Source: Acidobacteriota bacterium (lineage in GTDB: Bacteria; Acidobacteriota; Terriglobia; Terriglobales; Acidobacteriaceae). From it: DNA of 64,000 nucleotides. The notes below the pieces were generated by a model. It worked only from the letters and a program-made list of their open reading frames with translations. It did no database searches and was not told the DNA's origin. Where the stretch lies: contig JAJZGF010000005.1 of NCBI GenBank assembly GCA_021805025.1, positions 1 to 64,000 of the forward strand, in the 5' to 3' direction. The position numbers and the translations under genes were made by a program. Shown piece after piece: positions 37,979 to 39,709 of this stretch; position 1 is the first letter of the stretch; each line of letters begins with the position of its first letter.

Positions 37979-39709
37979 ATGAAAAATCTCGTCTGTGGTC
38001 TTTCTCTGCTGCTGCTCTCTGCGCCGCTTGTGCTGGCGCAAAGCTCCGCCGCCGATCCCTACGCCCCCACCCTTGGCGTCAATTGCGCGGCCACCGGCGA
38101 CGGGTCTTCGTCGCCGGGGTGTAAATCCGCCGCGGAAATCGACAATGAATGGCAGCAATCCGTCGCCAAATACGACGCAGAGCGCGCCCGCCTGCTCGCC
38201 GACGAACTGAAGCAGCAAAACGACGGCCCTTTCCGCGCCGACTGGGCCTCGCTTGAAAAGTACCAGCAGCCGCAGTGGTACAAGGATGCCAAGTTCGGTA
38301 TCTTCATCCACTGGGGCGTCTACTCCGTGCCTGCCGCGGAAAACGAGTGGTATCCGCGCAACATGTACCACCCCGGCGATGGCGCATATAAAGACTTCCA
38401 GGCCCGCTTCGGCCACAATGGCGAAGGGTGCAGCGGGGCCCCCGCGGACAGGTCTTCGTCCGCGGGGTGTAAGGGCTACAAGGACCTCATCCCGCTCTTC
38501 CGCGCCCAGCACTTTGACGCCACCGCCTGGGCCGCGCTCTTCAAGGAGTCCGGCGCGCAATACGTCGTTCCCGTAGCCGAGCACCACGACGGCTTCTCCA
38601 TGTACGACTCCGGCCTCAGCGACTGGACCGTCGTCAAAATGGGTCCCAAGCGCGATACCCTCGGCGAACTCGCCAAGGCCATACGAGCGCAGGGCCTCCA
38701 CTTTGGCCTCAGCTCCCATCGCGTCGAACATAACTTCTTCTATGACGGCGGCCGCGCCATCCGCTCTGACGTGAATGATCCGAAGAATGCCTCACTCTAC
38801 GGCCCCGCGCACCAGTGGCTCAGCGGCAAGGGCGGCCTCACCAATGACTGGACCTACGTCAGCGATGCCTGGGCCAGCGACTGGCTCGCCCGCGACACCG
38901 AACTCGTCCAGAAGTATCACCCTGAGATCGTCTACTTTGACTGGTGGATCGGCCAGCCCGCCATGCGGCACGCCGTCACACGCTTCGCCGCCTTCTACTA
39001 CAACTACGCAGCCGCCCACGGCTACACCGGCGTCATCAACTTCAAGGATTACGCGATGGACTACCCCGCCGCCGTGCAGGACTTCGAGCGCGGTCAGCAG
39101 GACCACATCGTCCCCCAGCACTGGCAGACCGATACCTCCATCAGCAACAAAAGCTGGGGCTACATCGAGCACGATACCTTCAAGACGCCCGACTTCCTCG
39201 TCCGTCAGCTCGTTGACATCGTGAGCAAGAACGGCAACCTGCTGCTCAACTTCGGCCCGCGTTCCGACGGCACAATTCCGGACGAAGTCCAGACCACGCT
39301 CCGCGCCATGGGCGCATGGCTCAAGGTCAACGGCGAAGCGATCTACGGCACAACGCCATGGACCACCTTCGGCGAAGGCCCCACCAAAGTCGAGGCCGGC
39401 GCCTTCCACGACACAGACACCAAGCCCTATACGCCGGAAGATTTCCGCTTCACCGCGAAAGGCGGCACGGTCTACGCCATCGGCATGGCCTGCCCTGCGA
39501 AGAGCGGAGAGATAGCCGGAAAAGCCGTCATCCACTCCCTCGGATGGGCGCATGAGGGGGCATCGCTGCCTGTCGCTTCCATCACGCTGCTCGGCTCCAA
39601 TGAAAAGGTGGCATGGACCCAGGGCGCCGACGCGCTCGCGGTCACTCTGCCCGCGGACACAGTCTGCACGTACGCCTATGCGCTCAAGCTCACGCCCGCG
39701 GCAAAGTAA
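37979..39709 (+). CDS. Secreted alpha-L-fucosidase, glycoside hydrolase family 29
   Basis: WYKDAKFGIFIHWGVYSVPAAENEWYPRNMY; VYFDWWIGQP; NGNLLLNFGPRSDG. Confidence 0.93.
   Translation: MKNLVCGLSLLLLSAPLVLAQSSAADPYAPTLGVNCAATGDGSSSPGCKSAAEIDNEWQQSVAKYDAERARLLADELKQQNDGPFRADWASLEKYQQPQWYKDAKFGIFIHWGVYSVPAAENEWYPRNMYHPGDGAYKDFQARFGHNGEGCSGAPADRSSSAGCKGYKDLIPLFRAQHFDATAWAALFKESGAQYVVPVAEHHDGFSMYDSGLSDWTVVKMGPKRDTLGELAKAIRAQGLHFGLSSHRVEHNFFYDGGRAIRSDVNDPKNASLYGPAHQWLSGKGGLTNDWTYVSDAWASDWLARDTELVQKYHPEIVYFDWWIGQPAMRHAVTRFAAFYYNYAAAHGYTGVINFKDYAMDYPAAVQDFERGQQDHIVPQHWQTDTSISNKSWGYIEHDTFKTPDFLVRQLVDIVSKNGNLLLNFGPRSDGTIPDEVQTTLRAMGAWLKVNGEAIYGTTPWTTFGEGPTKVEAGAFHDTDTKPYTPEDFRFTAKGGTVYAIGMACPAKSGEIAGKAVIHSLGWAHEGASLPVASITLLGSNEKVAWTQGADALAVTLPADTVCTYAYALKLTPAAK
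38090..38124 (+). repeat. Palindromic element inside GH29 coding sequence, copy 1
   Basis: CCGGCGACG-GGTCTT-CGTCGCCGG followed by GGTGTAAA; compare copy 2. Confidence 0.7.
38432..38474 (+). repeat. Palindromic element inside GH29 coding sequence, copy 2
   Basis: CCCCGCGGAC-AGGTCTTC-GTCCGCGGGG followed by TGTAAG; shares loop GGTCTTCGTC and tail GGGGTGTAA with copy 1 while arms differ with compensation. Confidence 0.75.

Follow-up and report, generated by a model that had tools for sequence, protein, structure and literature searches.

The GH29 gene of this acidobacterial genome contains, in its N-terminal part, two palindromes that lie in its reading frame. The question raised by this locus is what these palindromes are, how they came to be there, and whether the hairpin or the encoded peptide has since been maintained.

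The two palindromes inside the GH29 gene

The window, i.e. the whole stretch of 64,000 nt that was analysed, has a G+C content of 62% and lies within a genome of 4.39 Mb in 320 contigs. The GH29 protein matched PF01120 (E 1.7e-96) and PF16757, and the solved chains nearest to it by sequence were 7snk and 7ljj. The near relative 7ljj is named as an exo-alpha-L-galactosidase and, given this name, the substrate of the enzyme of the window (37979-39709) may be other than fucose. The features of the locus are as follows:

37979..39709, + strand: host gene, GH29 alpha-L-fucosidase-like, 576 aa, with an N-terminal signal-like peptide, predicted to be secreted (Pfam)
38081..38084, + strand: AATT (native AAAT), left half of the inferred 4-nt target duplication of copy 1 (empty-site comparison, duplication test)
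38085..38122, + strand: palindromic copy 1, 38-nt core GCGCGGCCACCGGCGACGGGTCTTCGTCGCCGGGGTGT (58.8 bits, E 8e-13, with a covariance model that had both window copies among its 16 training copies)
38092..38101, + strand: 5' arm of copy 1, followed by the loop (38102-38109) and the 3' arm (38110-38119) (fold, family pair counts)
38123..38126, + strand: AAAT, right half of the inferred 4-nt target duplication of copy 1 (empty-site comparison, duplication test)
38433..38470, + strand: palindromic copy 2, 38-nt core GCGGGGCCCCCGCGGACAGGTCTTCGTCCGCGGGGTGT, inside the peptide GCSGAPADRSSSAGCK (67.7 bits, E 4e-15, same covariance model)
38440..38449, + strand: 5' arm of copy 2, CCCCGCGGAC, followed by the loop (38450-38457) and the 3' arm GTCCGCGGGG (38458-38467) (fold, family pair counts)
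38471..38474, + strand: AAGG flank 3' of copy 2, which fits the preferred AARN target class

The initial annotation had described two in-frame hairpins with a common loop and differing, compensated arms, a description that was confirmed by repeat pairing, folds and the covariance model. In the repeat search, 38085-38124 paired with 38433-38472 as direct 40-nt copies of 83% identity, and both cores are translated in the GH29 reading frame. The stem of copy 1 has a single mismatch, at the second outermost pair; plus 4 nt of flank, this copy encodes the peptide NCAATGDGSSSPGC, placed between PTLGV and KSAAEID. The RNA fold energy was about -28 kcal/mol per copy in context, and the sense-strand fold z-scores were modest (-2.2 and -1.9) because the region is GC-rich. 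Membership of the two copies in a family is far beyond chance. Their compensated arms are explained by descent from different arm variants of this mobile family.

Structure, distribution and hosts of the family

The element is a 38-nt hairpin with a 10-bp stem, an 8-nt loop, mostly AGGTCTTC, a 5-nt 5' bulge (GGGGT) and a covarying end pair. Its ends are mostly CC...GG or AC...GT. Among 16 diverse copies, 95.6% of the stem cells were paired, none of 500 shuffles reached the covariation score, and sliding the arms abolished the covariation; the end pair was A-U in seven copies, C-G in three, G-U in two, G-C in one and unpaired in three. The two pairs that vary most among 122 independent copies were formed in 117 (pair 13-30, four Watson-Crick types) and in 120 of them (three types); shuffles gave 54 and 62, respectively. 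Since the stem pairs covary beyond shuffles, the hairpin is constrained in the mobile family. The window and five copy-bearing loci gave no gathering-score match in Rfam.

The exact pattern GGTCTTCGTCNNNGGGGTGTAA was searched across 257 Gb of genomes and gave 11 matching stretches, all from Acidobacteria MAG records and mostly in frame within unrelated genes. The family runs to hundreds of copies: the covariance model, built on 16 copies, found it in every one of the 80 genomes of the genus, from a single copy to more than 80, with at most 80 candidates scored in each genome. In a phylum-wide sample, 12 of 297 genomes were matched, all from four genera of the same family, the Acidobacteriaceae, and none from the other families of this sample. 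The genome of the window has seven covariance-model matches, two of them in GH29; the GH29 copies are the only ones with an exact GGGGTGTAA tail, the seven being reached when the search was relaxed. The GH29 hairpins represent copies of a palindromic element that is mobile, non-autonomous and, as far as sampled, confined to the Acidobacteriaceae.

As the initial annotation had suggested, the hairpin was sought in other ORFs, and it was found in many ORFs of related genomes, encoding x-G-V/A-P-x-D-R/G-SSS-x-G-C/W-K. Hosts of the exact pattern identified by Pfam were a threonine dehydratase (PALP), a DegT aminotransferase and a RecJ-like DHH protein; two further ones we take, from their sequence, to be GNAT-like and FabD-like proteins. 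Other Pfam hosts were GatB (in locus L045), RibD C-domain, 3-hydroxyacyl-CoA dehydrogenase, FAD-binding oxidase, RNase R, MutS-V protein, E1 dehydrogenase, helicase and histidine kinase, and many copies are intergenic. Familiar conserved motifs presumably contain or adjoin the insert in two hosts, L151 (FadB-like) and L163 (NadB/SdhA-like). Apart from its seven matches, the genome of the window carries a degenerate copy in gatB (L064, G000:C317:18314-18339), in which the stem is retained and the loop is altered with respect to the intact orthologous copy in L045 (TGAPGDESLSPGLK vs TGAPGDRSSSPGWK). An IMG/VR phage contig (L211:3238-3290) has a copy in the narrow gap that separates the stop of a tape-measure-like gene from the gene that follows, and a phage-borne copy is a possible route of horizontal spread.

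A larger palindrome of about 170 nt, bounded by the outer repeats AGCGGTTCTCCAATTG, encloses some copies, the element forming its apex; this larger repeat looks like a MITE family of its own that carries the hairpin. Since many copies in some genomes are at this apex, copy number is partly amplification of the larger repeat. In genome G229 (L126, L127, L129, L130, L134, L136, L139 and others), the larger repeat reads TATAGCGGTTCTCCAATTGC...GAATTGGAGAACCGCTCTA, with the variant AGCATTTTCGGAATTGC and nested palindromes. A different constant context, AGTGACCGCNCGAA...GGCAAGCGCAGTGGGC, was observed in another genus of the same family, g34 (L185, L186, L188, L189, L196, L197, L198, L200 and L209); the core there is apparently enclosed in a larger palindrome peculiar to this genus.

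Insertion sites, target duplication and mode of movement

The GH29 orthologues of the genus were aligned by codon, and alignment to them and to PDB chains served to locate the insertion sites. Site 1, between PTLGV and KSAAEID, was filled only in the genome of the window (G000) and in G254, and site 2, before KGYKD, in G000, G254 and G248 (L048 and L047, at 100% identity, duplicate the GH29 loci of G254 and G248 and do not represent additional genomes). Both sites were empty in the other orthologues, about 20 in number, which mostly share 72-89% identity across the protein. The alignment of GH29 homologues that the initial annotation had recommended shows, therefore, that both peptides are lineage-specific insertions, and the same residues were not observed in distant GH29 enzymes without the palindrome.

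The empty site of copy 1 reads GGCGTCAAATCC, GGCGTC/AAATCC (GTC/AAA). The filled site is GTC-AATT-[38]-AAAT-CC in G000 and GTC-CAAT-[GC...38 nt...TGC]-AAAT-CC in G254, which fits a 38-nt element plus a putatively duplicated AAAT, with one later mutation in each left copy. Copy 2 represents a net gain of 14 residues with respect to orthologues such as that of G241. Its left flank, TGCA (38429-38432), does not fit the AARN class, and no target duplication is recognisable any more in the flanks of this copy. Site 2 is considered a variable loop because its length varies even among close orthologues and the nearest solved GH29 chains are gapped there; site 1 follows the signal-like peptide, within the N-terminal tail. 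Both positions favour the initial annotation in its proposed check for placement in surface loops, as far as alignment can indicate. Genome G248 (L166) was without the site-1 insert, though its neighbouring sequence resembles that of the insert-bearing G254 (L165); this may be due to precise excision, to recombination or to two independent insertions.

The duplication was tested on 111 independent sites outside the larger repeat, defined by flank dissimilarity, against shuffled flanks. Identity between left and right flanks peaked at exactly 4 nt (0.529 vs 0.375 +/- 0.017, z 9.0), and exact 4-nt matches were found at 15 sites, against an expectation of 2.3 and never more than 8 in 1000 shuffles. 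At these sites, the signal was absent at 5 nt (z -0.5) and had a z of 1.5 at 3 nt. The 4-nt direct repeats flanking the element are a target-site duplication of fixed length. Right flanks were mostly AAGG, AAGA, AAAG and AAAC, the targets thus being A-rich and AARN-like, and tandem junctions had a period of 42 nt in 15 out of 19 cases. An insertion adds 42 nt, i.e. 14 codons, because the 38-nt element is accompanied by a 4-nt duplication; the net gain per insertion is 14 residues, partly of duplicated target sequence, which corrects the initial annotation.

With respect to movement, a host or phage transposase acting in trans would recognise the folded hairpin, which would account for the covariation of the arms around a fixed loop, and would insert it with a 4-bp staggered cut. 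Genes would survive the insertion because 38 + 4 is divisible by three; selection would then retain those copies that add a flexible, hydrophilic loop (GVPSDRSSSLGWK) where the protein tolerates it, and insertions in other frames would mostly be purged. The two loops inserted in the GH29 enzyme, each with its Cys pair, may now be part of the enzyme. To this explanation as a whole, namely a mobile palindrome moved by a transposase in trans, with a tolerated gain of 14 codons and frame-selected survival, we assign a probability of about 0.85.

The duplication would favour a DDE-type transposase as the enzyme acting in trans. One form of the preferred explanation is a MITE of a DDE-type IS, moved in trans, whose terminal inverted repeats now abut and make up the 38-nt hairpin. 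The fixed 4-nt length of the duplication, the CC...GG ends that pair and covary, and the DDE transposase genes present in these genomes, one of which is itself an insertion target, speak for this form. On the other hand, about 0.97 Mb of related sequence yielded neither split or solo ends nor an IS with matching ends, as expected from an autonomous parent, the ends are unlike each other and the GGGGT bulge is one-sided, and we give this form slightly less than an even chance.

An alternative is a REP element moved as a single-strand hairpin of the GTAG/REP kind by a RAYT, an IS200/IS605-like Y1 transposase. The 38-nt size, the hairpin, the high copy number and the clustering are all REP-like, all searched genomes of the genus have Y1 transposases, and Acidobacteria are known to possess RAYT-like TIRYT genes (PMC3733652). 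However, the terminal GTAG or CGTC tag is missing, as the element has no such unpaired end tag and its CGTC spans loop and arm. At 30 Y1/RAYT-type transposase loci of the genus, no convincing copy was adjacent, there was a single weak model match (27 bits) and no motif clustering, and hence copies do not flank RAYT genes there in the manner of a GTAG-REP/RAYT REPtron. The sharp 4-nt duplication also argues against this alternative, since Y1 transposition is not known to leave a target duplication. We consider it improbable. The searches did not find the mobilising enzyme.

The element was compared with four groups of known elements. The initial annotation had drawn an analogy to the Rickettsia palindromic elements (RPEs), which are 105-146 or about 150 bp long, with target duplication unknown (Ogata et al. 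2000, 2002; PMC2229807, PMC10969869). The analogy is valid for behaviour: both are palindromic, repeated and mobile, inserted in frame in unrelated conserved genes as well as intergenic, and encode a conserved peptide, and the features of an RPE-like functional class were found here (many copies per genome, in-frame copies in unrelated ORFs, and empty sites in GH29 relatives). It need not mean membership in the RPEs; the element has 38 nt plus a 4-nt duplication and belongs to free-living Acidobacteriaceae of soil and bog, in contrast to the obligate intracellular hosts of RPEs, the differences being of size and host. The GTAG/CGTC-tagged REPs (Di Nocera et al. 2013) are hairpins of 20-40 nt in high copy number, some of which lie within genes and encode short peptides; CGTC REPs include RPE-4 and RPE-6, without a known transposase, are mostly head-to-head dimers, and Acidobacteria are not among the CGTC-bearing phyla named (PMC3733652). 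The element shares with them hairpin size, high copy number, intragenic peptide-encoding copies and a transposase likewise not known, and differs from CGTC REPs in its head-to-tail tandem arrangement with a period of 42 nt. Bacterial MITEs with ORFs (Correia/NEMIS, ERIC, RU-2) have about 100-200 nt and most are TA-ended (PMC2229807); they resemble the element in being non-autonomous and hairpin-forming, with target duplication (4 nt here, z 9.0) and in-frame gene fusions, but the element is far smaller and without TA ends. Acidobacterial TIRYT repeats, the TIRs of Y1-like transposases with the motif GGGGWSAS (PMC3733652), are from the same phylum and have G-rich ends as well, but the motif match is inexact and no convincing element copy flanks such genes here. 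No published description of the element family was found in the literature searched, subscription journals being mostly outside it.

Most coding palindromes described so far come from Rickettsia, with a few other lineages besides. The Acidobacteriaceae are a major soil group in which this element family is abundant, and its exact empty sites, measurable duplication, tandem arrays and dozens of independent in-frame insertions in enzymes make mobility, frame selection and protein tolerance directly testable. Lineage-specific inserts of 14 residues with SSSxGWK or SSSxGCK in acidobacterial proteins should be regarded as mobile DNA, and not by default as adaptive loops.

Reading frame and encoded peptide

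Intragenic copies were called with a simple codon model trained on these loci (n = 41 independent sites). The sense frame x-GVPSDRSSSLGW-K (x-GVPSDRSSSLGWK) was used at 32 of them, the antisense frame HPSDEDLSLGTP at four, and two other sense frames at three and two (37 sense vs 4 antisense copies); under equal chances, the probability of this frame bias is about 9e-18. The simplest reading is that insertions into AAR-type codons were subject to purifying selection at the level of the peptide. All six frames of the consensus are free of stops, as are those of 109 of the 122 copies, but this openness by itself does not speak for selection, given that 36% of the composition-matched shuffles of the consensus were equally open owing to high GC.

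Within GH29, the last ten codons at site 1 (GDGSSSPGCK) show four synonymous and no non-synonymous differences between G000 and G254, and the arms of the G254 copy are mismatched at two of the 10 stem pairs, via synonymous changes. Each GH29 insert has a pair of Cys, kept through a synonymous TGT/TGC change at site 1 and in three of three genomes at site 2; at the position of the GH29 Cys, most copies of the family have Trp instead. These few data suggest that, after insertion in GH29, the peptide rather than the hairpin may have been maintained. Conservation of the hairpin in place within GH29 is contradicted by the stem pairs lost in G254. The initial annotation had considered the element as constrained in its nucleic-acid structure, which holds for the covarying mobile family but not for the G254 copy, where stem pairs were lost and most of the peptide was kept.

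Selection of the hairpin gene by gene as an mRNA element, acting in attenuation, ribosome bypassing or excision while the peptide is incidental or skipped, would agree with the strong RNA-type covariation, G-U pairs included, and with the sense-strand bias (37/41). However, 42 nt that are open and divisible by three make bypassing unneeded, site 1 of G254 loses stem pairs synonymously with no change in its last ten residues, and there are many intergenic copies as well as four antisense ones among the intragenic; this possibility is very remote. A domesticated module, i.e. a 14-residue loop kept for use as, for example, a disulphide-closed loop or a linker, would be in accordance with the preference for one frame, the Cys retained at both GH29 sites and the synonymous differences of site 1. 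The hosts, on the other hand, are unrelated and mostly cytosolic by Pfam identity, most copies have Trp and not Cys, and the frame bias is equally explained by simple tolerance, so that such a module is unlikely, if less so than a REP moved by a RAYT. Somewhat better placed, but still doubtful, is a broader proposal, by which the element evolved as a portable 14-residue protein loop that spreads in coding DNA and supplies new surface loops, domesticated in enzymes such as this GH29, with selection at the protein level after decay of the hairpin; it would have spread through coding DNA because its length is divisible by three, its frames are open, and the favoured frame is flexible and sometimes disulphide-closable.
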